From positions 1-42,461 of the IMG/VR virus record IMGVR_UViG_3300044701_002106: a DNA stretch of 42,461 nt. The stretch is one strand, 5' to 3'. Source of the stretch: a virus. Of this stretch, positions 1 to 42,461 are shown in pieces. The notes under the pieces are model-generated. The model searched no databases, was not told the DNA's origin, and worked only from the letters and a program-made list of their open reading frames with translations. Made by a program: the position numbers and the translations under genes. The stretch's first letter is position 1. Every line of letters begins with the position of its first letter.

Positions 1-127
1 ACCATGGCGCTGTGCGAGGCCTTGTAGGTGCCACGCGGGCACTCGCGGATGAACTGCTCAGCCTCCTCGCTGGGCAGCACGAAGAACGGGTAGCCCCTGC
101 CGACCCGGTGCTTGACCACCTTCACCA
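1..127. repeat. Left copy of a 127-bp exact terminal repeat
   Basis: These 127 bases are identical to the last 127 bases of the window (42335-42461). The repeat lies inside the RNA polymerase gene, and removing one copy joins the two parts of that gene in frame. The length equals a k-mer size commonly used by short-read assemblers, so the simplest reading is a circular assembly overlap rather than a physical terminal repeat. Unit length after removal is 42,334 bp. Confidence 0.97.
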
Positions 128-695
128 GGCCGGTTGATGCGTCGATGTGGTGCAGCAGGAACTGCCCGACCTGCAGCCGGGCCATGTCGTTCCACGCCGG
201 GGCCGGGCAGCCCAGCTGGGTCATGACCTCTTTGCTGGCGATCTTGCGGCGGCTCATGCCGTGGCGCATCAAGCGGCGCAGCTCCAGCGGGCTTTTGTTC
301 TCCAGCCGCATCAGGCGGGTCTCGTCCTCCACCGCCTTGCCCAGGTTCTGGCAGAACGTGGCCATCCGCTGCTTGCGGCTGAGCTGATCGAGCGTCGCCA
401 CCAGGGCAACTGCAGCAATGTGATGCACCCCCTTGAAGCCATCGAAGTAGGGCATGGCCGCGGCGAACGGCCGGGCCTTGTCAGGGGCCAGCAGGAAGTC
501 CTCGAACTCGCTCTCCAGCGCCCCCGCTAGGGCCTCCAGGCAGACGCTGTACAGCCGCTGCCCATACGGCAGGGCCGACTCCTTGCCGAGCTCACGCAGG
601 CGGCGCTGCCCACTGGCGTGGGCCTCCTGCGCCCGGCGCTTGTCTTTCTCCTGTCTTGCGAGCTGCTCGTCTTGAGGGGTGCGAAAAACTTGCAA
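1..695 (-). CDS. Single-subunit (T7-type) RNA polymerase, N-terminal part across the contig junction
   Basis: This is the 5' part of the phage RNA polymerase gene; it continues at 42334 and ends at 40618, giving 803 residues after closing the circle (T7 RNA polymerase has 883). The frame is open from a stop at 732-734 and holds no ATG before 453-455. The only usable start before the conserved region is TTG at 693-695, giving a protein that begins LQVFRTPQDEQLARQEKDK. The downstream stretch GKAVEDETRLMRLE parallels T7 AIGRAIEDEARFGRIRDLE. No good ribosome site is visible. The start lies inside a cluster of GCAAGTT heptamers, so expression may be controlled by whatever binds them. The frame is certain; the exact start is not. 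Confidence 0.9.
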   Translation of the reverse strand, partial: MQVFRTPQDEQLARQEKDKRRAQEAHASGQRRLRELGKESALPYGQRLYSVCLEALAGALESEFEDFLLAPDKARPFAAAMPYFDGFKGVHHIAAVALVATLDQLSRKQRMATFCQNLGKAVEDETRLMRLENKSPLELRRLMRHGMSRRKIASKEVMTQLGCPAPAWNDMARLQVGQFLLHHIDASTGLVKVVKHRVGRGYPFFVLPSEEAEQFIRECPRGTYKASHSAM

Positions 696-731
696 CTTGC
701 ACGCAAGTGACTTGCAGAGGCAAGTTATTCG

Positions 732-745
732 CTACGGGGGCGGAG
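732..745 (-). promoter_or_regulatory. Partial phage promoter-like element upstream of RNA polymerase
   Basis: On the minus strand this reads CTCCGCCCCCGTAG. Its right half (CCCCCGTAG, followed by CG) matches the right half of the YTAC-N6-GTAG elements seen elsewhere in the genome. The left half is degenerate. It lies about 37 bases before the RNA polymerase start. It is a weaker member of the family than the element at 787-800. Confidence 0.35.
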
Positions 746-786: not shown

Positions 787-800
787 CTACGAGGTCGTAA
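787..800 (-). promoter_or_regulatory. Candidate phage RNA polymerase promoter upstream of the RNA polymerase gene
   Basis: The minus strand reads TTACGACCTCGTAG, a full match to the YTAC-N6-GTAG consensus shared with 14552-14565, 29799-29812 and 34766-34779. It lies about 90 bases upstream of the TTG start of the RNA polymerase, within the heptamer cluster. This would allow positive autoregulation of the polymerase. The assignment as a promoter is by recurrence before genes, not by experiment. Confidence 0.5.
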
Positions 801-926
801 GGCCTGCTTGATCGGATTATGAGTGCGGAACACCCCTTGTGGCAAAAGGGATCTGCTCGCAAGTTGCAGGCAAGTTGCGGGAACTTGCGGCAAGTTTTGT
901 CGTCCTGCGAATTGAGCGGATAAATA

Positions 927-999
927 TGGGGGATGCCGGGATCGAACCGGCCTGACTCCGATTATGAGTCGGGTGCTTTCACCAGATAGCTAATCCCCC
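927..999 (-). tRNA. tRNA with anticodon CAU (Ile2 or Met)
   Basis: The minus strand folds as a cloverleaf. The 7-bp acceptor stem is GGGGGAT with ATCCCCC, and the T arm is GCCGG-TTCGATC-CCGGC. The anticodon loop CTCATAA has CAU at positions 34-36. The D arm is weak (three pairs, GCT with AGC) but carries the GG of the D loop. No CCA is encoded. The anticodon arm core CGACTCATAATCG equals that of E. coli tRNA-Ile2, which reads AUA after lysidine modification, so Ile2 is favoured slightly over elongator Met. The tRNA lies 41 bases from the end of the integrase gene, so it may be a functional tRNA, an attachment site taken from the host tRNA, or both. Confidence 0.88.
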
Positions 1000-1040
1000 A
1001 GCGCCCAGCTGGGCCGGGCAACAGTACGGCAGTCCTTGGA

Positions 1041-2054
1041 TCAGCCCTGCCTCTTTTCAAGGACCTCAAAGCAGCGGTCCAGCTCCTCTGATTTCATGTG
1101 GACGTAGCGCTCGCAGGTTTTGGCATTGCGATGGCCAAGCCATGCGCAGATCTCCAGCGTCGTGCGCCCCGCGTTGCCAAGCGCTGATCCAACCGTGTGC
1201 CGCAGCGCGTGCATGGCCCTGGGCATGTCGATGCCGCAGCGGGCCAGCGCTTTGTCGACCTGGTAGTCCAACTGCTTGTACTTGAGGGTCCACACCCGCA
1301 TGTGCGGCATGGGCGGCAAATAGGGCTGGATCGCCTCCAAGGCCCTTGGCGTGAGGCGCAGCACCCGGTTGCCTTCTTTGTTGTCCTTCACGGCCTTGAA
1401 GAACCGCACAGTGCGCTTCTCAAGGTCCACGTCTTGCCCCTTGAGCCGGGCAGCTTCGCTGAAACGGCAGCCCATCTCGCCCAAGAACACCACCATTGCG
1501 GCCTCTTGGTGCTTGCCACGCATCAGCAGGTCGTGGCAGGCCAGCCGCATTTCCTCGTCACTCCACACTCGTTTCTGCAAGTTGTGGACCGGCAGGTTCT
1601 CGGAAATTGGTGGCAGTGACTTCACGCCACCGTGGATCTTGGCCATTCTCCGGATTTGCCGGAGCTTGCTGAGCTTGGCGTTGATCGTTTGGGCCTGGTT
1701 CCCGCGGCGGATGAAGTGGGCGATCATCCGCTGCGTGTCCTTGATCTCCACCTCTTGCACGGGAGTCTGGTGGCCCAGGAACTCAACGACCTGCCTGGTG
1801 TAATCCAAGGAGGTGCGCTCGCTGACCATGCCCGCGTAGTGCTCCTCAAGGAACGGCAGGGCGTCCCCAAGGGTGAATCCGTTCGTCAGCGCAGGAGGCG
1901 CCTCGATGGCCTTCAGGGCCTCTGCTAGGCGCTGCTCAGCGTGTTTCTTGCTGTCGCAGGACAACTGCCTGCGGCGGCCACCTGGGTAGACAAGGTTCAG
2001 TACCCATTGGCCGCTCGCGCGCCTGGTGATCTTCCAGGAGCTGGGAGCGTTCAT
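1041..2054 (-). CDS. int: Tyrosine recombinase / phage integrase
   Basis: A 337-residue site-specific recombinase. The catalytic set is visible: Arg197 in GEMGCRFSEAARL, the HALRH box with His282 and Arg285, His308 in AWLGHRN, and nucleophile Tyr317 in CERYVH. The N-terminal part (about 60-150) is the SAM-like core-binding domain, and a short basic N-terminus may bind arm sites. It would integrate and excise the phage genome at an attachment site, for which the adjacent tRNA is the obvious candidate. Integrase genes next to the RNA polymerase are known from T7-like cyanophages. The ATG start follows a stem-loop (2063-2080) and a CCACGACC leader element just after the upstream marR stop, so it is probably cotranscribed with the regulator. 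Confidence 0.95.
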   Translation of the reverse strand: MNAPSSWKITRRASGQWVLNLVYPGGRRRQLSCDSKKHAEQRLAEALKAIEAPPALTNGFTLGDALPFLEEHYAGMVSERTSLDYTRQVVEFLGHQTPVQEVEIKDTQRMIAHFIRRGNQAQTINAKLSKLRQIRRMAKIHGGVKSLPPISENLPVHNLQKRVWSDEEMRLACHDLLMRGKHQEAAMVVFLGEMGCRFSEAARLKGQDVDLEKRTVRFFKAVKDNKEGNRVLRLTPRALEAIQPYLPPMPHMRVWTLKYKQLDYQVDKALARCGIDMPRAMHALRHTVGSALGNAGRTTLEICAWLGHRNAKTCERYVHMKSEELDRCFEVLEKRQG

Positions 2055-2093: not shown

Positions 2094-2414
2094 TTACGCG
2101 AGCCCTTCGATGGCCCGCTTGATGGCCAGTCCTTTCTTCGTGAGCCGCACTCGGTATCGCCTGCCCTCTGCTGGGTCAATGAAGACCTCAATCAGGCCTA
2201 GGCAGGTTTTGCGGTGGTTGGCGTGCTCCCCCAGGGAGTTCACGATTCGGCTGGCCGATGCGTTGCTCAGTCCAAACCGGGTTTCGATGTCCCGGTAGGT
2301 GCAGGACTCCTGCTGCGCGATGAACAGGAATACCTGCGCGTGATGGAGGGGAAGTGAGCCCGGATCCAGCGTTCCGAAAACGCCGAAAGCTCGCTCCAGT
2401 TGATCCAGATCCAT
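2094..2414 (-). CDS. MarR-like winged-helix transcriptional regulator
   Basis: A 106-residue protein with a winged-helix DNA-binding domain. A helix-turn-helix is visible in TYRDIETRFGLSNASASRIV, followed by a wing with GRRYRVRLTKKG, as in MarR proteins. MarR-type genes beside the integrase and RNA polymerase are described in T7-like cyanophages. The ATG is directly preceded by the GGTCGTGG (CCACGACC on the mRNA) element seen before other early genes. Upstream (2415-2586) lies a 172-base gap with a repeated TCATACGAG motif, which could be its own operator. It probably regulates lysogeny or the early operon; the ligand and targets are unknown. Confidence 0.8.
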   Translation of the reverse strand: MDLDQLERAFGVFGTLDPGSLPLHHAQVFLFIAQQESCTYRDIETRFGLSNASASRIVNSLGEHANHRKTCLGLIEVFIDPAEGRRYRVRLTKKGLAIKRAIEGLA

Positions 2415-2586: not shown

Positions 2587-2928
2587 CTACATCGAATGTG
2601 GGAAGCCTACGCGGCCGAGGAGTTCCCGCCCTTTGCAGGTGAGGTGTATCCGGTATCCGCGGGCTTGCGCTCGCCGCCTGCGCTGCAGCAGATGCAGCTC
2701 AGGTATGCGCACTTGTCCGGCTTGCTTGTCGTACCAGGGCGTCAGCTTGAGCACCGCCCGGTTGACGTGGGCATTTCTTGCCTTCGTCAGCTGTACCAGC
2801 TGCTCGATGGTTCGCGGTTGTTCAGCAACGTGCAGCAGCACCTCAACCGACAGCAAACCCAGCTGGCCGCTACCGGTTCCGTTGCGCAGCTCGCGCATCA
2901 GGCAGGCAAATTGACTAGGGCGGTCCAC
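2587..2928 (-). CDS. Second MarR-like winged-helix protein
   Basis: A 113-residue protein with the same general plan as the MarR-like protein downstream. An N-terminal helix is followed by LLSVEVLLHVAEQPRTIEQL, then a recognition-helix region ARNAHVNRAVLKL and a basic wing ending YRIHLTCKGRELLGR. The last segment parallels YRVRLTKKGLAIKR of the neighbour, which suggests an old duplication. The start is GTG at 2926-2928, behind GGAGGACC, and overlaps the end of the upstream small membrane-protein gene by 14 bases, so the two are translationally coupled. It lacks an obvious CCACGA leader. DNA binding is likely; the target is unknown. Confidence 0.7.
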   Translation of the reverse strand: MDRPSQFACLMRELRNGTGSGQLGLLSVEVLLHVAEQPRTIEQLVQLTKARNAHVNRAVLKLTPWYDKQAGQVRIPELHLLQRRRRAQARGYRIHLTCKGRELLGRVGFPHSM

Positions 2929-3725: not shown

Positions 3726-4205
3726 TCATTCGCCAAACCAGAACAGCGAGGCAAACCAGCGCAGGGCGTTGTGTTCGTATTCGTGCTGGGTGAAGACGCG
3801 AATCCAGGGCGTGCCCCAGTCCTGCGCCTCCAGCCAGCAGCGGCTGGGCTCGTGGTGATTGAGCTCCCCTTTGATCCGCAGGGCAGGCCCTCCGGTGGTG
3901 AGCAGGATTCGGAACTGTTCCGGCTCAAGGGAGGCACCGTCGCCGGGCCCCTTCCAGCCTTCGCGGATCTCAACGCTCAGCGGAGCCTCTCGCATGTCTT
4001 CCTCGATGAGCTCAGCCACGGCGGCGTGGTTGGTGCCGTCGTATCCGCTGCCCTTGAGGTAGGCCTTGGCCTCTCGTGAGAGGTAGCGGCCCTGGTCTTC
4101 TTCAACGCAAAAGACGTAGGCCTCGTGCGCTGCTGTGATCGTTTCAATCCAGCCGCGGGCGTTTTGCTCCGCGCTGGTTAGCGGTTCCGTTGCGGTCGTG
4201 GTCAT
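3726..4205 (-). CDS. Conserved-type early hypothetical protein with a DWGTPW motif
   Basis: A 159-residue acidic protein. Residues 1-40 are helical (SAEQNARGWIETITAAHEA); then comes a helix-rich stretch with DMREAPLSVEIREGW. The C-terminal half is beta-rich, with FRILLTTGGPALRIKGEL, LEAQDWGTPWIRVF and a closing LRWFASLFWFGE. I have a general memory of small plasmid and prophage proteins with a similar D-W-G-T-P-W core and FYFGE end, but cannot name a function. The start MTTTATEPL is chosen over an ATG 27 codons upstream because the upstream codons are just translated CCACGA repeats (RPRPRPRP). Confidence 0.7.
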   Translation of the reverse strand: MTTTATEPLTSAEQNARGWIETITAAHEAYVFCVEEDQGRYLSREAKAYLKGSGYDGTNHAAVAELIEEDMREAPLSVEIREGWKGPGDGASLEPEQFRILLTTGGPALRIKGELNHHEPSRCWLEAQDWGTPWIRVFTQHEYEHNALRWFASLFWFGE

Positions 4206-4210
4206 GGTTG

Positions 4211-4250
4211 GTCGTGGTCGTGGTCGTGGTCGTGCTGCTGAGGGCAGCAG
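4211..4250 (-). promoter_or_regulatory. CCACGA-repeat leader with hairpin, upstream of the gene at 4205
   Basis: On the plus strand four tandem GTCGTG units occupy 4211-4234, which is CACGAC x4 in the mRNA, ending 5 bases before the ATG. Immediately upstream on the mRNA is a 6-bp hairpin, CTGCTG with CAGCAG, and above that a GGGAGC/GCTCCC hairpin. No Shine-Dalgarno sequence is present, so the repeat may replace or tune it. Confidence 0.6.
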
Positions 4251-4282
4251 GGAAGGGAGCGGCGCTCCCCTCCGGGCTGTCT

Positions 4283-4501: not shown

Positions 4502-4837
4502 TTAGCCCTCCAGGTGGTAGTGGGCCACGATCGTGAGATCGCTGCGGCGGAGCATGTCAGCCAGCCAGCGGCAATCAGCCGCTGAGACCTGCAGGTTCAT
4601 GCGCTCGTAGCGGTTGGCCTGCGTTAGCAGTGCTGGCAGCAGGTGGGTCACCGCCTGGTTGTCCCAGCCCCTGGCGTCGTCTGAGTAGTCCCAGACAACA
4701 AAGGAGCGGCCATCTAGCAGCGGCGCCAGATAGGGCGCGCTTAACGGCCGGCGCCATGCTTTGACTGCCTCCAGGATCACCGCCTGCCAGCAGTCATGCA
4801 CTCGCTCGAACTGTGGTGTCGTTGTTGTGGTTGTCAT
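4502..4837 (-). CDS. Early hypothetical protein, N-terminal MTTTTTTP
   Basis: A 111-residue protein of unknown function. After a Thr-rich start it has helices FERVHDCWQAVILEAVKAW, a segment DGRSFVVWDYSDDARGWDNQ, and a helical C-terminus VTHLLPALLTQANRYERM followed by VSAADCRWLADMLRRS. The start follows CACGACCACGACCACCC, and the reading frame above it is only repeat-derived RPRPRP. It is first in a pair coupled to the gene at 4498. No catalytic motif is apparent. Confidence 0.65.
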   Translation of the reverse strand: MTTTTTTPQFERVHDCWQAVILEAVKAWRRPLSAPYLAPLLDGRSFVVWDYSDDARGWDNQAVTHLLPALLTQANRYERMNLQVSAADCRWLADMLRRSDLTIVAHYHLEG

Positions 4838-4842
4838 GGGTG

Positions 4843-4900
4843 GTCGTGGTCGTGGTCGTGGTCTTGCTGGTGAGCCCAGCAGGGAAGGCCCGCAGGCCCT
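4843..4900 (-). promoter_or_regulatory. CCACGA-repeat leader with hairpin, upstream of the gene at 4837
   Basis: Three GTCGTG units plus a GTCTTG variant (4843-4866, plus strand) end 5 bases before the ATG. They are preceded on the mRNA by a TGCTGG/CCAGCA hairpin (about 4865-4880). The 50-base layout and parts of its sequence (CAGCAGGGAAGG and CCCTCCGGG on the plus strand) match the leader at 4211-4290, so the two leaders arose by duplication or convergent selection. Confidence 0.6.
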
Positions 4901-4911
4901 CCGGGATGGGT

Positions 4912-5109
4912 TCAGGGCCCCGGCCAGTAGGTGAGGCCGCGGCGGTCGGGTATCGGCTGCTGTGACCCCGTAGGCGTTGCCTGCGCTGTCACCGCTGCTG
5001 GTGTTGCCTGCTGTTGCTGGCGCATTGCCTGCCGTTGCATGTCCCCCAGGGCCCACAGGCTCCAGAGGCCAACCAGCCCGGCGGCGACGGTTGAAACCGT
5101 GCTGCGCAT
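4912..5109 (-). CDS. Small single-pass membrane protein
   Basis: A 65-residue protein. Residues 6-22 (STVAAGLVGLWSLWALG) form a membrane segment, followed by a Gln-rich linker DMQRQAMRQQQQATP and a Thr/Ala/Pro tail ending RGLTYWPGP. Function unknown. The ATG is 3 bases after the TGA of the gene upstream, so the two share an operon and probably coupled translation. It has no CCACGA leader of its own. Confidence 0.58.
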   Translation of the reverse strand: MRSTVSTVAAGLVGLWSLWALGDMQRQAMRQQQQATPAAVTAQATPTGSQQPIPDRRGLTYWPGP

Positions 5110-5853: not shown

Positions 5854-5916
5854 AGGCCGGCAGGGCGCGGGTGATGGCGGGGTGAGGCAGGGGTGTTGAG
5901 GGCGGTTACGCGGGCC

Positions 5917-6016
5917 CCTTCTTATATCTGTCTTCTGTGTAGGAGGTTGGCAGGGTTTTATCGGGGTAAGAGGTGGGTTTGGACTACGGGGGTGTAGCGT
6001 CCTTCTTATATCTGTC
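5917..6016. repeat. 16-base direct repeat with TATAAG core on the minus strand
   Basis: CCTTCTTATATCTGTC is found at 5917-5932 and 6001-6016. Read on the minus strand each copy has TATAAG, one base from a sigma-70 -10 box, but no good -35 box lies 16 to 18 bases away. They may be host-polymerase early promoters helped by an activator, or operators. Confidence 0.6.
5984..5997 (-). promoter_or_regulatory. Candidate phage promoter in the control region
   Basis: The minus strand reads CTACACCCCCGTAG, a full YTAC-N6-GTAG element with the C-rich spacer of the other members. It points toward the leftward block and lies between the two TATAAG repeats. Because of the dyad the opposite orientation cannot be excluded, but the plus-strand spacer is G-rich, unlike the other family members. 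Confidence 0.4.
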
Positions 6017-6034: not shown

Positions 6035-6445
6035 ATGGCTGTGTTGCTTACGGGGTCCTGTCCATTGACCCGGGAGGCGTTGGCGCTGGGGAGGGAGTGT
6101 GGGTTGGTGTATGGGGTGTTGTGGGAGGCGGCGTGGCATGACCAGCGTGGGGAGTGTGGGGGGACGACAGAGCTGAGCCATAAGGCGATTGCGGATCTTT
6201 GTCGGATCAGCGAGAAGACGGTGAGGAGTTCGGTGGACCTGTTGCTGGATGACGGGCTGATCAGCTGTCTGGGTTTGACCAACAGCTGGCATGGCGGATC
6301 ACGGAAGCGGATTTACCGGGTGTTGCATCCGAGTCAGGTGGAAGCGCAGCGGGTAGCGATTGATGTGATGGGTGAGGCGTTACGTCCGAGTGTGCGGGCG
6401 AAGATGTTGCGCACACCTGGTGGGCTGACGGGAGACGAGGATTAG
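6035..6445 (+). CDS. Winged-helix DNA-binding protein, first gene of the rightward block
   Basis: A 136-residue protein. Its centre (about 47-76) has a clear helix-turn-helix, ELSHKAIADLCRISEKTVRS, followed by SVDLLLDDGLIS and a wing with GGSRKRIYRV. This is the layout of phage replication-initiator or DnaD/RepA-type N-terminal domains and of some transcription regulators; the C-terminal tail carries no second domain. Codon use is unlike the neighbours, with many GGG, GTG and TTG, making the plus strand very G-rich; recent acquisition is possible. It lies next to repeats and a palindrome, so autoregulation or origin binding are both plausible. Confidence 0.68.
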   Translation: MAVLLTGSCPLTREALALGRECGLVYGVLWEAAWHDQRGECGGTTELSHKAIADLCRISEKTVRSSVDLLLDDGLISCLGLTNSWHGGSRKRIYRVLHPSQVEAQRVAIDVMGEALRPSVRAKMLRTPGGLTGDED

Positions 6446-6758: not shown

Positions 6759-8518
6759 AGGAGCTGTGGGAGCCGTTACCGGATGTCTTGCGGGACAGCT
6801 TCCCGAACTTCACTTGTTATTTGCTGCGGGAGTTGGGGTTAGCGGATAGCCCCACCCGTCAGCAGATCAGTGTCTGTGACTGGATGCAAAACGGCCCCGA
6901 GCGGTCGTTGACGGTGGCGTTCCGGGGCCTGGGGAAGTCGATCCTGGCGTCGTTTTATGCGTTGTGGCGGCTGCGGGTGGATCCCAGCGAGAAGATCCTG
7001 GTGGTGTCAGCCACGGCCGTGAAGGCGACGGACTTTTCGTCCTTCATGCTGCGCTGCATTGGCGAGGTGGACATCCTGCAGTGCCTGATGCCAGGGCCCA
7101 GCAACCGGTTCTCCAACGTGGCCTTTGATGTGGGCCCCACGATGGTGGAGCAGTCTCCATCGGTGCGCTCGATGGGGATCATGGGGCAGACCACGGGTCA
7201 GCGTTGTACCTGCGCAATCCTTGATGACGTGGAGACGTTGGCCAATGTGATCACCCAGCTCAAGCAAGAGCGGGTGGCGCATGCGGTTGAGGAGATCCAG
7301 TCGATCATCAAGCCCGATGAAGGGCAGCCGTTAGCGCGGAAGATCCTGTACCTGGGGACACCGCACACCGAAACCAGCATTTACCTGCGGCTGGTGCGGG
7401 AGCGCAGCTATTCGGCTCGTTATTGGCCGGCGTTGTACCCCAAGGAGCTGGAGTCGTATGAGGGGAATCTGGACCCCGTGCTGGAGGCTGAGGTCTTAGC
7501 CGACCCTGCCCTGACGGGGGAGCCAACAGATCCCGAGCGTTTTTCGCACGAAGACCTCCTGCAACGCAAAGCGGCCATGACCAAGGCCAGCTTTGAGCTG
7601 CAGTTCATGCTCAACACCCGTCTGGCCACGCTGGACAAGTTCCCCGTGCGCCTGGGGGACCTGATCGTGATGGACATCGACGGCACGGCACTACCGGAAA
7701 CGGTGGTGTGGTCGAACCAGCCCGACATGCGTTTGCAGGAGCTGGTCTGCGTCGGGATGGGATCTGATCGCTTCTACCACCGCCCGATCTTCCAGAACGG
7801 CTGGATTTCCCGCAGTGAGCAGTGGCGGTGTGTGCTGGCGATTGACCCTGCTGGCCGCGGCGCCGATGAACTGGCCTGGGCGGTGGTGGCCGAACTGAAC
7901 GGCAACCTGTTCCTGCTGGAATCCGGCGGCAGCACCCTGGGTTATGCCGATGAGGTGCTGCAGTACCTGGCCAAGGTGGCCAAGAAGTGGGACGTGAACT
8001 ACGTCGTCGCCGAATCCAACATGGGCGACGGCATGTTCTCGGCGCTGCTCAAGCCGCACCTGATGCGGGAGCACCCCGTCACCATCGAGGAGGTGCGTCA
8101 CAACCAGCGCAAGGAGCAGCGGCTGTGTGACACGTTGGGTCCGCTGATCCAGCAGCATCGCCTGGTGGTCACCACCCGCGTCATCAAGCAGGACTACCGC
8201 CTGCTGGATGAAGACCCGGAAACCGGCTACAGCCGCTCACTGTTTGTCCAGGCCAGCCGCCTGACCGCTGAGAAGGGCTGCCTTAGCCATGACGACCGTT
8301 TGGATGCACTGGCGATTGCCTGTGGGTTCTTTGTGGAGTCCGCGGCGCAAGACCAGCAGCGGGCTGCACGGGCGCGTGCGGACCAGCTGCAGCAGGAGGC
8401 GTATGACGCTTGGCTGGATGAAAGCGGTGCTGCGATTGATGCCCTGGCGCTGGGCTGGCGGCCGAAGGCCTCCCATCGCGCCCACGGTGGGGTCAGCCGG
8501 CTTCGCGTTGGCGGTTGA
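6755..8518 (+). CDS. terL: Terminase large subunit (T7 gp19-like)
   Basis: The ATP-driven DNA packaging motor and nuclease, 587 residues (T7 gp19 is 586). The ATPase Walker A is AFRGLGKS at about 55-62 and Walker B is AILDDVE at about 154-160. The coupling motif is in ILYLGTPHTETSIY. The C-terminal RNase H-like nuclease has AIDPAGRGADE near 363, ESNMGDGMF near 419 and HDDRLDALAI near 512, supplying the metal-binding acids. These align along the whole length with T7 gp19. The GTG start overlaps the stop of the small gene upstream. Its last 26 bases overlap the end of the convergent small-terminase gene. In T7 this gene follows the tail genes; here it opens the late block. Confidence 0.97.
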   Translation: MKELWEPLPDVLRDSFPNFTCYLLRELGLADSPTRQQISVCDWMQNGPERSLTVAFRGLGKSILASFYALWRLRVDPSEKILVVSATAVKATDFSSFMLRCIGEVDILQCLMPGPSNRFSNVAFDVGPTMVEQSPSVRSMGIMGQTTGQRCTCAILDDVETLANVITQLKQERVAHAVEEIQSIIKPDEGQPLARKILYLGTPHTETSIYLRLVRERSYSARYWPALYPKELESYEGNLDPVLEAEVLADPALTGEPTDPERFSHEDLLQRKAAMTKASFELQFMLNTRLATLDKFPVRLGDLIVMDIDGTALPETVVWSNQPDMRLQELVCVGMGSDRFYHRPIFQNGWISRSEQWRCVLAIDPAGRGADELAWAVVAELNGNLFLLESGGSTLGYADEVLQYLAKVAKKWDVNYVVAESNMGDGMFSALLKPHLMREHPVTIEEVRHNQRKEQRLCDTLGPLIQQHRLVVTTRVIKQDYRLLDEDPETGYSRSLFVQASRLTAEKGCLSHDDRLDALAIACGFFVESAAQDQQRAARARADQLQQEAYDAWLDESGAAIDALALGWRPKASHRAHGGVSRLRVGG

Positions 8519-8732: not shown

Positions 8733-8762
8733 GGCTACAAGGGTGTAGAGCTCTAATCCACT

Positions 8763-9356
8763 ATGACGATGGAGGACGGCCTGATCACGCCGCAGAAATG
8801 GCGTGATTGTTGGCGGTGGTACAGGGCTGAACAACAGCAGCAGGAAGGAATCAACCTCCTGTATGAACACATCAAAGCAGCTGATCCAGCGTTATTGCAC
8901 GAATCAGCCGAGTGGCTGCAAGTTTTTCGCTCCCGAACCCTGGCAGAGGGGGAGTATGCCAACAGCTGGGAGGGTGTGAAGGCTGCTGCCGCGGCCTACG
9001 GCGCCCGTTTTCCGCAGGTTGTGGCCGCTCAGTGGGCCCTGGAGAGCAATTACGGGGCTCATCCGTCCGGTCGCTGGAACATGTTTGGCCTGAAGGGCCC
9101 TGGAACGCCGTGTAAGACCAGCGAGGTGTACGGCGGCAAGGAAGTCAGGATCGTTGACACCTTTATGGACTTCACGAGCCTTGGTCATGCCGTCCGATAC
9201 CTGTGCGATCGGTGGTACAAGGACTTCAAGGGCTATCGCGGGGTCAATCGAGCGACCACACCCGAGGAGTGCGCCCGGCTTCTGCAGGCTGAGGGGTATG
9301 CAACGGACCCGCTTTACAGCAAAAAGCTGATCACGATCTTCACCAGACGCCGGTAG
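8763..9356 (+). CDS. GH73-type glucosaminidase, endolysin candidate
   Basis: A 197-residue peptidoglycan hydrolase. The C-terminal two thirds match the FlgJ/LytG-type endo-beta-N-acetylglucosaminidase fold, with the catalytic Glu94 in AAQWALESNYG, then WNMFGLKG and an FMDFTSLGHAVRYL segment typical of the family. Residues 16-56 form a separate helical module (W-RWYRAEQQQQEG, LLYEHIKAADPALL, EWLQVFR). A related module begins the C39 peptidase at 35430-36143. No signal peptide is seen, so release would need a holin. An alternative start is ATG at 8769. It sits between the terminase genes and the gp7.3-like cluster, so a virion-associated lysin is also possible. Confidence 0.85.
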   Translation: MTMEDGLITPQKWRDCWRWYRAEQQQQEGINLLYEHIKAADPALLHESAEWLQVFRSRTLAEGEYANSWEGVKAAAAAYGARFPQVVAAQWALESNYGAHPSGRWNMFGLKGPGTPCKTSEVYGGKEVRIVDTFMDFTSLGHAVRYLCDRWYKDFKGYRGVNRATTPEECARLLQAEGYATDPLYSKKLITIFTRRR

Positions 9357-12474: not shown

Positions 12475-13328
12475 CCACGACCCCAAACGCGCAAACCGCG
12501 CCTCAGATCACCACTCCCGAAGCTGCGGCAGAAGGAATGGTGGCGCCCGGGCAGGAAAGCCTGCTGGAGGAATTTGTCAAAGAGCAGCAGGGCCAACAGG
12601 CGCCCGAGCTGCTCGCCGGCAAGTTCAAGAGCGTTGAGGACCTGGAGCGCTCCTACCAAGAACTGGAGAAAAAGCTGGGCCGGCCCGAGCGGCAGTCAAC
12701 CGAACAAGAAGCTCCCCCTCAGGCCGAGGGCTACACACAGGAGCAGGCCGTTGAGGTCTATGGCCAAGAAGCCGTAGAGACCCTGGCCAGCAAAGGCGTC
12801 GACCTGGCGGACGTGATGTTCCGCGCCGACAGCGGCGAGGATGTGAGCAGCCACTACGACGCGCTGGCTGAAGCCTTCAACGTCCCCCGCCAGGTGGTGG
12901 AAAACTATGTCGCCAAGGCCCAGTCATCGACAGGGCAGCAGGCTGGCCTGAGCGAAGCAGACACGGCTCAGATCAAATCCATGGTCGGCGGCGACGAGGG
13001 CTTTGCCGAGCTCAGCAAGTGGGCCGCCAGCAACCTCAATGCCCAGGAGCTGGCCGACTACAACGCTGTGGTCGACGGCGGCAACAAAGAGGCCATTCAG
13101 TGGGCCCTGCGGGCAATGGTGGCCAGACGCGCCTCTCCAGACGCTGTTGTTGAACCCAAGCTCTACGGGGGCGGAGATGCACCTCAGCAATCCCGCTTTG
13201 AGAGCCAACAGCAAGTGCTTGATGCCATGGGCAAGACCAATGAGCGCGGACAACGCCTGTACGAAGTTGACGAGGCTTACCGCTCCAAGGTGGCAAAGAT
13301 GTTGGCGGCAAGTGATCTATTCGTGTAG
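12471..13328 (+). CDS. Scaffolding protein (T7 gp9-like)
   Basis: A 285-residue acidic, Gln- and Glu-rich helical protein between portal and capsid genes, as expected for the scaffold that directs procapsid assembly and then leaves. A segment GKFKSVEDLERSYQELEKKLG (about 45-65) is characteristic of phage scaffold proteins of this family. The C-terminal end, with KTNERGQRLYEVDEAY and KVAKMLAAS, is helical and probably contacts the capsid protein. The start overlaps the portal stop (ATGA). Confidence 0.92.
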   Translation: MTTTPNAQTAPQITTPEAAAEGMVAPGQESLLEEFVKEQQGQQAPELLAGKFKSVEDLERSYQELEKKLGRPERQSTEQEAPPQAEGYTQEQAVEVYGQEAVETLASKGVDLADVMFRADSGEDVSSHYDALAEAFNVPRQVVENYVAKAQSSTGQQAGLSEADTAQIKSMVGGDEGFAELSKWAASNLNAQELADYNAVVDGGNKEAIQWALRAMVARRASPDAVVEPKLYGGGDAPQQSRFESQQQVLDAMGKTNERGQRLYEVDEAYRSKVAKMLAASDLFV

Positions 13329-14471: not shown

Positions 14472-14503
14472 GTTCTCGGGGTTCATCGGAGTGTTCACCC
14501 CAG

Positions 14504-14530
14504 GGGGCCGGCAATGCTGGCCCCTTTTTT
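14504..14530 (+). terminator. Rho-independent terminator after the capsid gene
   Basis: GGGGCCGGC (14504-14512), loop AAT, and GCTGGCCCC (14516-14524) form a 9-bp stem with one G-U pair, followed by six T. It lies 33 bases after the capsid stop. T7 has its terminator at the same place, just after gene 10. Confidence 0.9.
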
Positions 14531-14540: not shown

Positions 14541-14570
14541 CACAATGAGTGCTACAAGGCCGTAGAAGTC
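14541..14570 (+). promoter_or_regulatory. Phage promoter candidate before gene 11
   Basis: A 30-base block matching 29788-29817 at 27 positions. Its core is CTACAAGGCCGTAG (14552-14565), preceded in both copies by CACAATGAGTG. It follows the capsid terminator by 10 bases and precedes the gp11 start by 2. The right half resembles the cyanophage Syn5 promoter as I remember it (ending CACCCGTAA). It would restart transcription for the tail and core genes. Confidence 0.65.
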
Positions 14571-14572
14571 AA

Positions 14573-15235
14573 ATGGGACTCGCCAATCAGTCGGTCACCC
14601 CAGGCAGGACGACGCTGTTGGATGCGGTCAACGTCCTGCTGGAAAACATTGGCGAGCAGCCGGTCAGCACGCTGGAAAACCAGCAGATCATGGATGCGCG
14701 CATTGCAGAGCGCACCCTGCTGGAGTTCCACAAAGAAGGCCAGATCAAAGGCTGGAGCTGGAATAGCGAGTTCAACTACGAGTTCGTCAAAAACAGCACC
14801 ACTAACCAGATCACGGTGCCGGCAAACGTGGTGAGTTTCTCCACGGACCCCTACTACTACGCAGGGCGTTTCCAGCTGCGGGGCCAGGTGGTGTACGACC
14901 GCGACAAGCGCACCAGCACGCTGGCGGCGGAAATCACCTCCCTGTATGCCGATGTGATCTGGCTGCTGCCGTGGGACCAGGCGCCTGAGGCCTACAACCG
15001 CTGGGTCACCATCCGCTCCGCCCGCGTCTTTGCCAGCCGTGTACTGGGGGCCGACTCGCTGATTCGCTACAGCGTCCAGGACGAGCGCGACGCGCAAGCA
15101 GCGCTGGAGCGCGTGGAGCAGCAGGTTGACCAGCCCAACATGCTCACCGGCAGCCGCGGCTACCTGCCCTTCCCGACCTATGCGCCGGCTTCTGGGCTTG
15201 CCACCCGCCGGATCAGTTCTGGGATGCGCCTCTGA
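14573..15235 (+). CDS. Tail tubular protein A (T7 gp11-like)
   Basis: A 220-residue gatekeeper or adaptor ring protein joining portal and nozzle. Family features are the start SVTPGRTTLLDAVNVLLENIGEQPV, the TLLEFHKEGQIKGWSWNSE segment and PEAYNRWVTIRSARVFASRVLG. The start MGLANQS is preferred over codons 8 positions upstream because those fall within the repeated promoter block. The stop overlaps the gp12 start by one base (TGATG). Confidence 0.93.
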   Translation: MGLANQSVTPGRTTLLDAVNVLLENIGEQPVSTLENQQIMDARIAERTLLEFHKEGQIKGWSWNSEFNYEFVKNSTTNQITVPANVVSFSTDPYYYAGRFQLRGQVVYDRDKRTSTLAAEITSLYADVIWLLPWDQAPEAYNRWVTIRSARVFASRVLGADSLIRYSVQDERDAQAALERVEQQVDQPNMLTGSRGYLPFPTYAPASGLATRRISSGMRL

Positions 15236-21613: not shown

Positions 21614-21627
21614 TTACGACCCCGGAC
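21614..21627 (+). promoter_or_regulatory. Weak promoter-like element before the large virion protein
   Basis: TTACGACCCCGGAC has the left arm and the GACCCC spacer of the YTAC-N6-GTAG family but not the right arm (GGAC). It begins directly after the gp15-like stop, 46 bases ahead of the next start. A decayed or weak promoter is the best reading. Confidence 0.25.
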
Positions 21628-29787: not shown

Positions 29788-29817
29788 CACAATGAGTGCT
29801 ACGAGCCCGTAGTAGTC
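29788..29817 (+). promoter_or_regulatory. Phage promoter candidate before the tail fibre gene
   Basis: A 30-base block with 27 matches to 14541-14570. Core CTACGAGCCCGTAG (29799-29812) with upstream CACAATGAGTG. It lies 14 to 40 bases after the virion protein stop and 10 before the tail fibre ATG. T7 likewise has a promoter (phi17) before its tail fibre gene. Confidence 0.65.
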
Positions 29818-29827: not shown

Positions 29828-31462
29828 ATGCCCCTTTCCTACGCCACATACACAGGGAACGGGTCGACCACCACGTTTTCCGTTCCCTTCCCGTACATCC
29901 TCAAGGCGCACGTCAAGCTCTACTTCGGGTACAGCCTTCTGGATGGCAGCTACACATCGCTGCTGGCTGAGGGCACCAATTACACCTGGTCAAGCGCCAC
30001 CCAGGTCCAGCTGACCACGGCCCCGACTGTCAGCCAGGTGCTGACGATCATCCGTGACACCCCTGACAGCAGCCAGCTGGTGCCTTGGCAGGACGGCTCC
30101 AACCTCATCGCTGGCGACCTCAACACGGCTGACCTGCAGAACCTGTACGTCGTCCAGGAGCAGCAGGACCGCAACGACGCTGGCATCACGCAGTCCACTA
30201 CTGCAATCAATACGGCCAACGCTGCCAGCACGACAGCGACGACAGCTGCGGCTTCGATCGGCGGCAAGCTCGACAAGACGGGCGGCACCATGACCGGTGC
30301 CATTGCGATGAGCGCTAACAAGATCACCGGGCTTGGTGATCCGACTGCTGCTCAGGACGCGGTAACAAAGACCTACGTTGACACGTCAACAGCGGCCTCG
30401 GTGGCAGCAGCTGCGGCAAGTGCCACTACTGCAACCGCGCAGGCAGCTTCTGCCGCGACTTCGGCCAGCAATGCTGCCAGCGCCCAGGCCGCAGCGGAAA
30501 GTGCCAGGGATTCGGCGCTGGCGGCCTACGACAACTTTGACGACCGCTACCTGGGGGCCAAGGCCAGCAACCCCACGGTTGATAACGACGGCAATCCGCT
30601 GGCGGCGGGTGCGCTGTACTTCAACACCACGTCGCAAGACATGCGGATCTACACAGGCAGCGCCTGGGTATCCGCCTATGCCAACGGTACGACGTTCCTG
30701 CAGCTGACTGGCGGGACGATGACCGGCAACATCACGTTTGCCGGGGGCCAGCCAACTGCAACGACTTCTGCCCCGAACATTGTCCAGCTGACGGACAGCA
30801 CGGCCAGCACCAGCACGACAACGGCAGCGACGCCAAACAGCGTCAAGAGCGCGTACGACTTGGCGAACACCGCCAACAACACCGCCAATGCCGCATTGCC
30901 AAAAACAGGCGGCACCATGACTGGTGCTATCACCTTTACTGCCGGTCAAGCAACACCAGCAGTAGGTGCAATCACCAGCGGAAGTGTTTCTGGCATCACC
31001 GACTTGGCAGTTGCAGACGGAGGTACTGGTGCTTCTACTGCTTCTGGTGCTCGGACCAACCTTGAGCTTGTTATTGGAACTGATGTTCAAGCGTTTGATT
31101 CCAATACCACCAAGCTCAACGTCACCCAATCCTTTACCAAGGCCCAGCGTGGTTCACCTGTCGCCCTGACCGACGCTGCCACCGTTGCCGTTGACTTGAG
31201 CCTAGGCAACTTCTACACGCTGACCTTGGGCGGAAACCGCACCCTGGGTGCCCCGACAAACCAAACCGCAGGGCAGAGCGGCGTGATCGTGATCACCCAA
31301 GACGGGACCGGCTCCCGCACCTTGGCCTACAACTCCGTCTGGAAGTTCCCAAGTGGTACAGCGCCAACGCTGACGACCACAGCCAGTGCGGTTGATGTAT
31401 TGGCCTACTACGTCGAGTCCGCCACCCGCATCACTGCCCGTCTGCTGAGTGACGTGAAATGA
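29828..31462 (+). CDS. Tail fibre protein (T7 gp17-like N-terminus)
   Basis: A 544-residue fibre. Residues 1-140 match the T7 gp17 tail-attachment domain: YTGNGSTTTFSVPFPYILKA, a VKLYFGYSL strand, and DLNTADLQNLYVVQEQQDRN. The shaft follows, with repeated GGTMTGAI/GGTMTGNI motifs (near 155, 298 and 360) and an Ala/Ser/Thr-rich coiled-coil-like stretch (180-235). The C-terminal part resembles generic cyanophage fibre ends (TVAVDLSLGNFYTLTLGGNR). The stop overlaps the next gene by 4 bases, suggesting that the following protein is an adhesin carried on the fibre. Confidence 0.92.
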   Translation: MPLSYATYTGNGSTTTFSVPFPYILKAHVKLYFGYSLLDGSYTSLLAEGTNYTWSSATQVQLTTAPTVSQVLTIIRDTPDSSQLVPWQDGSNLIAGDLNTADLQNLYVVQEQQDRNDAGITQSTTAINTANAASTTATTAAASIGGKLDKTGGTMTGAIAMSANKITGLGDPTAAQDAVTKTYVDTSTAASVAAAAASATTATAQAASAATSASNAASAQAAAESARDSALAAYDNFDDRYLGAKASNPTVDNDGNPLAAGALYFNTTSQDMRIYTGSAWVSAYANGTTFLQLTGGTMTGNITFAGGQPTATTSAPNIVQLTDSTASTSTTTAATPNSVKSAYDLANTANNTANAALPKTGGTMTGAITFTAGQATPAVGAITSGSVSGITDLAVADGGTGASTASGARTNLELVIGTDVQAFDSNTTKLNVTQSFTKAQRGSPVALTDAATVAVDLSLGNFYTLTLGGNRTLGAPTNQTAGQSGVIVITQDGTGSRTLAYNSVWKFPSGTAPTLTTTASAVDVLAYYVESATRITARLLSDVK

Positions 31463-34506: not shown

Positions 34507-34758
34507 GTGGTTGAAGTCGCTGCTGCCGTCGTAGGTGCGGCCATCACAGTTGGGGCCATGGGTGTCGGCGCTCTTGGCTCCCGCGGCAGGGAAGGCAGGG
34601 ACGCTGTGATTCGCCTGGCGGCCAGTGTGGACAACGTGGCTACACGGCTTGAGCAGCTGCATGTGGACATCAAGGCCGACCGCCGGGAGACGTTCAGCCG
34701 GCTCAATTCGATAGAGCAGCGTGTTGCTCGGCTTGAGGTGCCCAACCAGCACGTTTGA
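34507..34758 (+). CDS. Membrane-anchored coiled-coil protein
   Basis: An 83-residue protein with an N-terminal hydrophobic segment (VAAAVVGAAITVGAMGVGAL, about 4-23) and a C-terminal heptad-like helix (ATRLEQLHVDIKADRRETF, SRLNSIEQRVARLEV). It lies between tail genes and a holin-like gene, so a spanin-like or lysis accessory role is possible. The GTG start at 34507 is provisional because the frame is open and hydrophobic further upstream (LLIGFAPA). No Shine-Dalgarno is visible. Confidence 0.55.
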   Translation: MVEVAAAVVGAAITVGAMGVGALGSRGREGRDAVIRLAASVDNVATRLEQLHVDIKADRRETFSRLNSIEQRVARLEVPNQHV

Positions 34759-34765: not shown

Positions 34766-34779
34766 TTACAACCCCGTAG
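34766..34779 (+). promoter_or_regulatory. Phage promoter candidate before the lysis-type genes
   Basis: TTACAACCCCGTAG is a full member of the YTAC-N6-GTAG family. It begins 8 bases after the stop of the coiled-coil gene and ends 25 bases before the holin-like ATG. It lacks the CACAATGAGTG extension of the two long copies. Confidence 0.55.
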
Positions 34780-35214: not shown

Positions 35215-35430
35215 GGCCTCGGCTTCAGTTGCCTGCAGGGACTCCAGCCAGCTGTCGAGCGCAGCCCTGCTGGCGGTGCTGAGGGAGAGCTTGAGGAACT
35301 TGCGGAGCTCTTTCGGACAACGCACGAACACACTGGCCTGCTTTCCATAGGCGATGTAAAAACGTCCGTTCCAGTCCCTGCCGGTTTCAACGGACATGGC
35401 GCCAGGTAGGCGGAGGGTGTCGCGTTTCAT
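35197..35430 (-). CDS. Small hypothetical protein, last gene of the leftward block
   Basis: A 77-residue basic protein. A beta-rich N-terminal half (DWNGRFYIAYGKQASVFVRC) is followed by helices (PKELRKFLKLSLSTASRAAL, DSWLESLQATEAE). The start-GRFY-VFVRCP-L layout faintly recalls ribbon-helix-helix or small nucleic-acid-binding proteins, but is not diagnostic. ATG overlaps the TGA of the peptidase gene by one base. No function assigned. Confidence 0.55.
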   Translation of the reverse strand: MKRDTLRLPGAMSVETGRDWNGRFYIAYGKQASVFVRCPKELRKFLKLSLSTASRAALDSWLESLQATEAEASDVAA

Positions 35431-36143
35431 CAGCTAAACGTCCAGCCCCAGCCACCGCCGTCGATGTCCCAACGGGGCAGCAGGTTTTTCCAGCTGTACT
35501 GCTCGTTCTTGCCGGTGCCTGTGCCCGTCTTGGCCCAGCCGCCATTGACCAGATCAATGGAGCCGTAGGGGTCATGCACCAGGGCGTGGGTCTCGGTGTA
35601 CCCGCGCAGCACGATGTAGTGCCCGCCGCCCTTGGGGGCCGACACGGGGCCGTGGTGCAGCACGCCAATGGCCACCGGATAGCCCTTGTCGATCTCCCGG
35701 ATCAGGTCCTGCTTGTGCAGGTTGGTCCTGAATCGGTGGCGCGCACCCAGTTCGGTCAGTGCCTGCTGGTGGGCAACAGCTGAGGTGGTGTCGCCGTGCT
35801 TTTTGACGAACGGCAGGTACTTGAGGTCGTCATCCAGGCGCTGGCCGGTGGCTGGGATGCGAGCCCCCAGGTAGCGGAGGCACATGGCGATGCTGCTGGT
35901 CTGGCATTGCCGCCAGCCTTCAGGGCCGTTGTCCAGCTGGCTCATGTATTCCACGGGCAGCGGGTTACCCACCGTGAAGACAGGCTTCTGCCGATAGGTC
36001 TCGATCCAGTCGGCGTCGTCCTCCAGGAGCTCGGGGCACTTGGAGGCCAGCGTCAGGTAGAGGAGCTCTACGCCGCGCTTCTGCGTGGGTTCGCCTTGGT
36101 AGTAGGCGAAGAAGTTGGCAAAGCCTTGAGTGGTGAGCTTCAT
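35430..36143 (-). CDS. C39-like papain-fold peptidase, lysin candidate
   Basis: A 237-residue protein. Residues 75-200 have the papain-like triad of C39-type peptidases: Cys80 in GWRQCQTSSIAMCL, His175 in GGGHYIVLRGY, and Asp191 in VHDPYGS. Residues 10-52 form a helical module (FFAYYQGEPTQKRGVELLYL, CPELLEDDADWIETYRQ) that is related to residues 16-56 of the GH73 lysin at 8763-9356. C39-like domains with this N-terminus are common in cyanobacteria and their phages; cleavage of peptidoglycan cross-links is the likely role, though a polyprotein or host target cannot be excluded. It is in the replication block, unlike typical late lysins. Confidence 0.8.
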   Translation of the reverse strand: MKLTTQGFANFFAYYQGEPTQKRGVELLYLTLASKCPELLEDDADWIETYRQKPVFTVGNPLPVEYMSQLDNGPEGWRQCQTSSIAMCLRYLGARIPATGQRLDDDLKYLPFVKKHGDTTSAVAHQQALTELGARHRFRTNLHKQDLIREIDKGYPVAIGVLHHGPVSAPKGGGHYIVLRGYTETHALVHDPYGSIDLVNGGWAKTGTGTGKNEQYSWKNLLPRWDIDGGGWGWTFS

Positions 36144-36159
36144 TACGCCCCCGTATCAC

Positions 36160-40547: not shown

Positions 40548-40621
40548 CTGGTCGTGGTCATGGGGCCCACAGAAATTACCTCGTATTCCACGGGGGTGTA
40601 GAGGTCGTACGGGAGTCTCAT
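40493..40621 (-). CDS. Possible 42-residue protein between RNA polymerase and SSB
   Basis: An ATG at 40619-40621 overlaps the RNA polymerase TGA (ATGA) and opens a 42-codon frame: MRLPYDLYTPVEYEVISVGP, then MTTTRCPSCSLPLW. Its last 55 bases overlap the SSB gene in another frame. The ATGA coupling and 71 otherwise unused bases favour it; the short length, the promoter-like element inside it and the Ser-rich end argue against it. It may only be an mRNA leader. Confidence 0.35.
   Translation of the reverse strand: MRLPYDLYTPVEYEVISVGPMTTTRCPSCSLPLWRSAAGSSS
40588..40601 (-). promoter_or_regulatory. Phage promoter candidate before the SSB operon
   Basis: The minus strand reads CTACACCCCCGTGG, which matches CTACACCCCCGTAG at 5984-5997 except for one base. 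It ends 41 bases upstream of the SSB ATG. A promoter here would drive SSB to exonuclease separately from the RNA polymerase gene. Confidence 0.4.
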
Positions 40622-42461
40622 GAGTACAGGTATGGATTTGTACCCAGCAGTCCTGGTTGCAGGGTCCCGATATAAGGCGGATCTGAGAGTGAGACCCCAG
40701 TATTCATTTGGATTTCCTCCCGAGCGACCTGCAGCCAGTTGGTTCTGTGCATGTCCCGGAAGGCGCTGTGCAACATCGTATGAAGGACCGTCGCGTCGTT
40801 CGTATGAGTCGCAAAGCAGTCGTGGTTTGTCAGCAATGGCATGCCGAGCTCCCCGGCCCTGTAGATGACCTGCTGGCACAACGCAGCGTCAAAGGCATGC
40901 ACGAAGTTGGCCCCGATGCCCTTGTTGGCCTGCGTGGCGGACAGCGGGGAGTCGACGGGCTGGTCCTGAATGGTCAGGCTGATCTTTCGCCCGAACATCA
41001 GGGTCTGCACCTTTCGCTTGGTGGGCTCCCTGTCAGCCAGCCGCATCGGCCAGCCCATGGGCGTGGTCCACTCAAACGGGTGCCCAGCGCTCATCACCAG
41101 CCGGCAGGACTTCTTGAGCCAGGTCTTGACCTCGATGCAGGGCTGCACCACCGCCTTCAGCTCAGCCCATAGGTGGCTGGCCAGGTACTTGGCTGGAATG
41201 GCCACCCGGAAGGCGAACTCGTCCAGCGGGACATAGCCCAGATGCTCATCGAGCGCGTCCACCAGGCTGTCGCAGAGGCTCATGTAGGAGCCGCCGTAGG
41301 GCGTGGCCAGGATTGGCCCCTTGACCAGGCCACGGTCAATGCCGCGGCCCAGCCAGAGCTCCGCCAGGGCCTTGCTGCGCTCGTCCCCCATCTCCAAGTC
41401 GACGGTCAGGCGCCGGACCACCTGCTCGGCGATGACTGAGTACAGGTCCCGAGGGGTTGTGCCGAACAGGTTGCACAGTCGGCCGACCTTGGCGTCCCGC
41501 ACCAGCGTGGCCAGGATCCCGCAGCCGCTGGTGGTCTGGTCAAACCGGATCGGCACACCGGTGGCGCCTGTTTCCAGAGCCTGCTGCAGGCCCTTGCACA
41601 TCTGCAGGAACTGCCAGGGGTCCTTGGCCGAGCGCCATAGCTCCAGCCGCCCCAGCGGGTCAGCCGCAGCGGCCAGCATCTGGTCCTTGTGCTGCTGCCC
41701 CCAGCGCAGGCGCTCACTCCAGTAGCTGCGGCTGAGCCCGTAGTGGCCGGCCGCGGCCTTGAAAATCCAGTCAATGCCCTCGTCAGTGGCCGGGGCCTGC
41801 TGCTTAAACGACAGCAGCGCCTTTTCGTAGTCGGGCCCCTGATGGGTGACGTACTTGTTCCCGCTGTAAATGCGGCCCCTGTGGTCAGCGTGATAGGCCT
41901 GCCAGACGGTGCGGCCTGCCAGCTCCTCGGCTGATTGCAGTGCCCGCTCGATCTTGATTCGCCTGGTCCTGTTCTGCTCCCTGTCCCGGTGGGCCATGGC
42001 CGCCAGCCGGTTGCGGGCCCGCAGCTCCTCTGCGGTGGGTTCATTGCCCAACCGCTCTGGCACCTCCATGGGCGCCCTGCGGCAGGGGTACAGCCCCTCG
42101 ATGCCGTTCTCCCAGGCCGTGCGCTGCAGCTCCACCATCTCCCCGTCCACCACCAGGGGCGTGGCCTGCAGGTGGTTGACCGCACTGACAAAGGCCGACA
42201 GGTCAGCCCGGCGGTAGTGCTCGATGGCGCTGCTGTCTTTCTCCTCGTTGTCCTGGATCGGCACCCGGATCAGGCACTCCTGGTTGCCCAGCACGCCGCC
42301 GCCATACAGCCCAGGCCATGGCTCAGGCGGGCAGACCATGGCGCTGTGCGAGGCCTTGTAGGTGCCACGCGGGCACTCGCGGATGAACTGCTCAGCCTCC
42401 TCGCTGGGCAGCACGAAGAACGGGTAGCCCCTGCCGACCCGGTGCTTGACCACCTTCACCA
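40618..42461 (-). CDS. Single-subunit (T7-type) RNA polymerase, main part
   Basis: The C-terminal 613 residues of the phage RNA polymerase; the gene begins at 695 across the junction. Numbered on the closed 803-residue protein: the DxxGR loop is DHRGRIYSG near 382, motif A is RFDQTTSGCGILATLV with catalytic Asp497, motif B is KGPILATPYGGSY with Lys570 and Tyr578, and motif C is NHDCFATH with Asp737. All catalytic residues of T7 RNA polymerase have counterparts. The enzyme would transcribe the middle and late genes from the YTAC-N6-GTAG elements. T7 ends with FAFA; this protein ends GTNPYLYS. Confidence 0.97.
   Translation of the reverse strand, partial: VKVVKHRVGRGYPFFVLPSEEAEQFIRECPRGTYKASHSAMVCPPEPWPGLYGGGVLGNQECLIRVPIQDNEEKDSSAIEHYRRADLSAFVSAVNHLQATPLVVDGEMVELQRTAWENGIEGLYPCRRAPMEVPERLGNEPTAEELRARNRLAAMAHRDREQNRTRRIKIERALQSAEELAGRTVWQAYHADHRGRIYSGNKYVTHQGPDYEKALLSFKQQAPATDEGIDWIFKAAAGHYGLSRSYWSERLRWGQQHKDQMLAAAADPLGRLELWRSAKDPWQFLQMCKGLQQALETGATGVPIRFDQTTSGCGILATLVRDAKVGRLCNLFGTTPRDLYSVIAEQVVRRLTVDLEMGDERSKALAELWLGRGIDRGLVKGPILATPYGGSYMSLCDSLVDALDEHLGYVPLDEFAFRVAIPAKYLASHLWAELKAVVQPCIEVKTWLKKSCRLVMSAGHPFEWTTPMGWPMRLADREPTKRKVQTLMFGRKISLTIQDQPVDSPLSATQANKGIGANFVHAFDAALCQQVIYRAGELGMPLLTNHDCFATHTNDATVLHTMLHSAFRDMHRTNWLQVAREEIQMNTGVSLSDPPYIGTLQPGLLGTNPYLYS
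42335..42461. repeat. Right copy of the 127-bp exact terminal repeat
   Basis: Identical to 1-127. It lies within the RNA polymerase gene, codons about 149 to 190 of the open 613-codon part being continuous with the N-terminal portion at the other end. Only one copy should be counted in the genome. Confidence 0.97.

Follow-up and report, generated by a model that had tools for sequence, protein, structure and literature searches.

Control of the polymerase gene of temperate T7-like phages by a MarR-like repressor is an idea already in print: for the Pseudomonas phage LUZ100, such a repressor was proposed to act at sites flanking the RNA polymerase (RNAP) promoter (PMC10134795). That work, which cites an earlier study (its reference 14), reports neither proven lysogens nor binding data. 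The phage promoters mapped in LUZ100 have a different, 17-bp motif (PMC10134795). Numerous sites spread across a genome and served by one phage repressor are known from the stoperators of mycobacteriophage L5 and its relatives, asymmetric sites to which the repressor binds as a monomer (PMC9283540). In the Bacillus prophage SPbeta, a temperate phage master repressor, MrpR, is likewise paired with a repeated element, SPBRE, and MrpR is a different repressor from the MarR-like candidate considered below (PMC10516654). A fourth point of comparison is the promoter of the Syn5 RNA polymerase, ATTGGGCACCCGTAA (PMC3950665), which the earlier note on this DNA had given correctly.

The window (the whole 42,461-nucleotide stretch analyzed here) is a complete, circularized T7-like phage genome that begins and ends with the same 127 bases. 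Among named phages it is most closely related to cyanophage S-SRP02 and to uncultured MedDCM phages assigned to Oinezvirus, Nohivirus and Stopalavirus; related phage genomes and contigs are labeled with L-numbers (L001, L002 and so on; L038 is Syn5). Terminase and structural genes lie on the plus strand, while genes for RNAP, a gp2.5-like single-stranded DNA-binding protein (ssb), primase-helicase and exonuclease lie on the minus strand. The frame of the single-subunit RNAP runs across the circular junction, with its 3′ part at 40618 to 42334 (minus strand; phrog_414, E = 2.7e-111) and its 5′ part at 1 to 731 (minus strand; the frame opens at 731, an approximate start). Adjoining this minus-strand set are a tyrosine integrase gene (1041 to 2054, minus strand; phrog_1, E = 2.5e-34) and a MarR-like gene. 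As in LUZ100, the MarR-like gene is thus next to the integrase gene and upstream of a single-subunit RNAP. However, whereas the sites proposed for LUZ100 are confined to the RNAP gene, the window and its cyanophage-related lineages carry a defined 14-bp palindrome genome-wide, with two copies at a fixed 55-bp spacing and a trend linking recognition helix to half-site letter. The dyad symmetry of the site also sets it apart from an L5-type stoperator. As far as our literature search reached, the proposed operator as defined here is new, as are its spread through the genome and the symmetric drift of its letters.

The dyad in the window and its relatives

The earlier note had singled out two 30-base blocks (14541 to 14570 and 29788 to 29817), which do have 27 of 30 bases in common, and had read the motif within them as a promoter family for the phage RNA polymerase. 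The first block lies, as described there, downstream of the terminator-like hairpin 3′ of the capsid gene (14502 to 14526, plus strand; the best-scoring site on that strand), and its dyad, the proposed operator CTACAAGGCCGTAG (14552 to 14565), ends 7 bp before the ATG of tail tube A (TTA) at 14573. The second precedes the gene at the fibre position, its dyad CTACGAGCCCGTAG (29799 to 29812) ending 15 bp from the ATG at 29828. Core matches at 787 and 5984 (minus strand) and 34766 (plus strand) were likewise present, as were the one-mismatch or half copies at 732, 9395 and 40588; the copy at 21614, listed with these, has two mismatches. A motif search of the window added a dyad at 8735 to 8748 and a near-copy at 36143 to 36156, both previously overlooked. 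YTACN6GTAG has 10 strand-wise matches at six places (787, 5984, 8735, 14552, 29799 and 34766) where 0.45 are expected, a count reached by 0 of 100 shuffles, and the tighter form YTACR-N4-YGTAR occurs 6 times versus 0.13 expected from Markov simulations. With no motif supplied, CTAC-N6-GTAG ranked first among all 4-6-4 dyads in both the window and MedDCM-OCT-S37-C6.

The six dyads head, across short gaps, tail tube A, the tail fibre, endolysin, RNAP, a predicted minus-strand gene and the early region, and all counted dyads and near-copies lie at gene starts or in short intergenic gaps (one-mismatch matches within genes, e.g., at 13058 and 13163, were left out of the site count). Upstream of RNAP, a distal motif match, TTACGACCTCGTAG (787 to 800, minus strand), is paired with a proximal dyad, CTCCGCCCCCGTAG (732 to 745, minus strand), 55 bp away. 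The dyad CTACACCCCCGTGG (40588 to 40601, minus strand) precedes the ssb gene, with TAATTT 9 bp beyond it, and therefore covers the expected −35 region of ssb. In the divergent early region, CTACACCCCCGTAG (5984 to 5997, minus strand) follows a minus-strand TATAAG by 7 bp; this dyad is kept in L020, L024 and L013, as is CTACAAGGGTGTAG (8735 to 8748), 14 bp 5′ of the endolysin ATG at 8763. The dyad TTACAACCCCGTAG (34766 to 34779), 13 bp 5′ of the predicted minus-strand open reading frame (GTG at 34752), is kept in L003, L004, L010, L014 and L018. The near-copy TTACGCCCCCGTAT (36143 to 36156) abuts the ATG of a minus-strand lysis gene (35430 to 36143).

A motif search in related genomes, suggested in the earlier note, found the dyad kept at homologous places, with the 14-bp form in Oinezvirus, Nohivirus, S-SRP02, Stopalavirus and IMG/VR contigs (many context sites were chosen by eye from listings). 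The TTA dyad has an equivalent in L002, L001, L036, L015 and L120 to L136, and the fibre-position dyad in L002 (10188) and L036 (8789). In MedDCM-OCT-S37-C6 the dyad stands 5′ of tail tube A, 5′ of the fibre-position gene and between RNAP and ssb. In some relatives the mirror positions 3 and 12 switch together, from CTAC..GTAG to CTGC..GCAG. In counts of all dyads, CTGCAC-N2-GTGCAG ranks high in S-SRP02, and TGCA-N4-TGCA occurs 14 times in S38-C3 (1.4 expected); both forms represent this 14-bp palindrome after a joint change at positions 3 and 12. Expectation-maximization motif discovery on 154 upstream regions from five genomes, with palindromy unconstrained, returned a...CTRCA....TGYAG. Since chance gives about 2 to 3 CTGC-type dyads per genome, lone CTGC matches are weak evidence, which does not apply to CTAC matches.

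Two other explanations of the dyad were rejected. As an RNA hairpin it would have a stem of only 4 to 5 bp with a free spacer, and in S-SRP02, RNA could not close the 2-nt loop that a full CTGCAC-N2-GTGCAG stem implies. An upstream open reading frame (ATGAGTGCTACAAGGCCGTAG) ends at the TAG of the dyad in the window and L002, but the frame is lost in S-SRP02.

Two arrangements near these sites are recorded for completeness. On the minus strand of the early region (5895 to 6015), ACAGATATAAGAAGG is repeated in tandem at a distance of about 90 bp, and a dyad follows only one copy. In the endolysin family phrog_10051, positions 34 to 208 are matched by the product of 8763 to 9356 (plus strand) and positions 227 to 450 by that of 35430 to 36143 (minus strand), as if a single endolysin had been split into two genes, here 26 kb apart and on opposite strands.

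A MarR-like protein as candidate binder

In CTRCR-N4-YGYAG the half-site centres are 9 bp apart, or about one helical turn, so that the site has the palindromic form and spacing of a MarR operator. MarR-family operators are palindromic and contacted by a dimer. The phage encodes a winged-helix protein of the MarR fold, the candidate dyad binder, in the gene adjoining the integrase (2094 to 2414, minus strand; 106 aa, phrog_9665). Its Pfam match to MarR_2 (E = 3.4e-6) is above the cut-off, and an AlphaFold2 model gives a winged helix-turn-helix with a pLDDT of 89 and a recognition helix at residues 51 to 61. The list of similar folds is filled with MarR structures (best Z 13.0 over 91 residues), and structures solved with DNA are among the closest; OhrR-ohrA (1z9c), MarR (5h3r) and MepR (4lll) share the fold at Z 10.9 to 12.5. 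Unlike in these structures, the phage protein is short, and its dimerization and DNA binding are putative. A second MarR-like paralogue (2587 to 2928, minus strand; phrog_9665, E = 0.003; helix NAHVNRAV) lies upstream of the first, has relatives in clade A loci only and is a possible alternative or partner binder, or an antagonist.

The dyads are probably operators of the phage MarR-like repressor, silencing the phage in lysogeny. One recognition helix of a MarR-like homodimer would contact each half-site, one helical turn apart. By occupying the early promoter, the region of the RNAP promoter and the promoters of the ssb, fibre and tail genes, the repressor would shut out host RNA polymerase and perhaps the phage enzyme as well; we propose that with these promoters blocked an integrated phage would stay silent, and that loss of repressor would release polymerase expression and the lytic program. 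If true, this would explain why a phage with a polymerase of its own does not kill its host. A defined conserved operator together with a named candidate binder makes the MarR switch of temperate T7-like phages directly testable. An RNAP search of GTDB species genomes for prophages yielded six loci; most lay on short MAG contigs or on a contig of phage size, so no prophage was shown.

A MarR-like gene lies beside the integrase gene in almost every relative sequenced far enough. Recognition helices starting with NA tend to go with CTAC and those starting with NS, NG or P with CTGC: ratios of CTAC to CTGC dyads were 92:44 (clade A) and 6:11 (clade B) for NA helices and 5:60 (clade B) for other helices. 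The overall trend is strong; within the mixed RNAP clade B the association of helix and letter reached a permutation P of only 0.034, uncorrected for descent, and the group with helix NASVSRTVNAL has mixed dyad letters. Against the operator reading, no relative cleanly separates the MarR-like gene from the dyads. L107 lacks both the first MarR-like gene and the 55-bp pair, and keeps the second paralogue and a few perfect dyads (e.g., at 6066 and 5′ of ssb); L095 and L099 have a MarR-like gene and lack the pair. In L134 (about 7880 to 8020), an in-frame deletion has removed the whole helix-turn-helix from the MarR-like gene while the dyads are kept, possibly a natural loss of the repressor.

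Promoter-like elements beside the dyad

Of 12 deduplicated tail tube A loci, 10 have a TANNNT hexamer that begins exactly 11 bases 5′ of the dyad (a 5-bp gap), the only offset that recurs. The window (CACAAT, 14541 to 14546, plus strand) and L002/S37-C6 (CAGAAT) keep this register and lack the first T. The same −10-like CACAAT precedes the fibre-position dyad by 5 bp (29788 to 29793, plus strand), in the register seen at TTA; among fibre loci, TANNNT was counted at that register in 3 of 7, and inspection by eye showed the register in most others. Upstream of ssb, TTGNNN-16/18-TANNNT was found in 24 of 47 loci versus 3.6 expected from shuffles, as in L136 (TTGACG-17-TACGTT) and S-SRP02 (TTGACG-17-TACCTT, with the dyad 7 bp downstream); in CTAC lineages the ssb dyad itself occupies the place of the −35 box. 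The TTA and fibre sites thus have a −10-like element, usually with no recognizable −35, and capsid sites showed no clear promoter register. By these consensus matches, the TTA, fibre and ssb dyads overlap sigma70-like promoter elements at fixed registers, as MarR operators do, and the dyads sit where a bound dimer would block initiation.

The same elements could instead belong to composite late promoters, in which phage or host RNAP reads the sequence 5′ of the TTA and fibre dyads and the dyad is a repressor site over the start. A conserved, strand-specific element of ATGAG type (e.g., CGATARCATGAG or CACAATGAG) does stand a constant 5 bp 5′ of the TTA dyad and of most fibre dyads, in the absence of a −35 box. 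However, it also fits a bacterial −10 (TANNNT), was seen at neither RNAP nor ssb sites and was not recovered as a genome-wide motif by motif discovery with the dyads masked, and we consider such composite promoters unlikely.

What stands of the original interpretation is a repeated, dyad-symmetric cis-regulatory signal that heads transcription units; that the signal is read by the phage RNA polymerase is probably wrong. Under that weakly supported reading, the dyad would be the promoter of the single-subunit enzyme, and transcripts would begin at GTAR or immediately after it, comparable to Syn5 (GTAA then G). The dyads do sit where T7-like promoters do (RNAP, ssb, capsid in relatives, tail tube A, fibre and lysis genes). 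A second motif search, with the dyads masked, returned nothing strong and no other motif that might serve the phage RNAP as its promoter, so the dyad remains a candidate for that role. Through its 14-bp core, the Syn5 promoter (TTGGGCACCCGTAA) fits 8 of the 10 positions of YTACR-N4-YGTAR, and the likeness extends beyond the site, with GCAAG after both Syn5 copies and ARCAA after the distal RNAP dyad. In contrast to the window dyad, the Syn5 promoter has only two copies in Syn5 and is incompletely palindromic, and the two polymerases are distant (about 24% identity). In Syn5 itself, GCAAG directly follows CACCCGTAA at 4935 and 44803, and the distal dyad of the window reads GTAG-AGCAAG.

Several observations make a phage polymerase promoter improbable. 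Dyad symmetry would be unusual for a T7-type promoter, as had been recognized from the outset, and half-site mismatch counts in five contexts gave no sign of asymmetric, fixed-direction recognition: mismatches in the 5′ and 3′ halves were 14:3 at the distal RNAP site and 6:1 at TTA, where the 3′ half is better kept, versus 11:25 at the proximal RNAP site, 5:12 at ssb and 0:3 at capsid sites, where it is the 5′ half. Because the better-kept half depends on gene context, the dyad has no polarity. Both halves change letter together between lineages, and promoter-like elements lie at a fixed offset from the dyad. No initially transcribed sequence or start is common to the 3′ flanks of the TTA, fibre, ssb, RNAP and endolysin sites, the flank being conserved at the distal RNAP site only (ARCA). 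Transcripts initiated where the TTA site ends would have leaders of only about 3 to 11 nt (the distance from dyad to start codon is 7 in the window and 3 in L036). Furthermore, the window and L015 both have CTAC, yet their polymerases are 40% identical and match at only 4 of 29 positions in the aligned specificity-loop segment, while the motif differs between L001 and L015 at 52% polymerase identity (these being few cases, with loop boundaries set by alignment). Repeated intergenic motifs in T7-like phages should thus be viewed with caution before they are called polymerase promoters.

The paired dyads upstream of RNAP

Paired dyads 5′ of the RNAP gene were exactly 55 bp apart, start to start, in 62 of 81 loci (a loose threshold, 8 of 10 positions in each dyad), other spacings reaching counts of 27 to 42; the pair is absent from several lineages. 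Alignment of 37 pairs drawn from this set showed common flanks, with ARCA after the first dyad and often GATAA.TTGC after the second. The pair adjoins AACTTGC/GCAAGTT repeats and either a tRNA or a sequence that duplicates a tRNA anticodon loop, and judging from this arrangement the region looks like a phage attachment region. An apparent 5′ mRNA hairpin after the proximal RNAP site (ACTTGC..GCAAGT) was dismissed as one of the repeated GCAAGTT elements of this region.

The dyads upstream of RNAP might accordingly be architectural or directionality sites of the attachment region, with the same winged-helix protein doubling as an excision factor. The pair lies at a fixed distance between the repeated anticodon-loop core and the AACTTGC/GCAAGTT repeats, which resemble integrase arm sites, and is 55 bp apart in many lineages. 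Nonetheless, most dyads are far off, 5′ of lytic genes; in L004 and L013 the pair is kept although the core differs, and some lineages have no pair. We regard this role as very unlikely. A repressor operator remains the reading we prefer for these sites also. Taken to its furthest extent, it would have one small MarR-like protein run the whole lysis-lysogeny switch through identical dyads, repressing early, middle and late promoters genome-wide, with the fixed 55-bp pair within the attachment region coupling silencing of the RNA polymerase gene to integration or excision, across a widespread clade of temperate T7-like cyanophages; this broad scheme is speculative and, as a whole, doubtful.

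Within the window, positions 700 to 1000 hold a tRNA-Met (926 to 1000, minus strand), a second anticodon-loop copy at about 813 to 826 and repeated AACTTGC/GCAAGTT; relatives have tRNA-Leu-like sequences in place of the tRNA-Met. Farther into the minus-strand early genes, a GGTCGT-rich repeat is present as two 74-bp copies with 85% identity (4183 to 4256 and 4815 to 4888), each of which overlaps an open reading frame with a threonine run.
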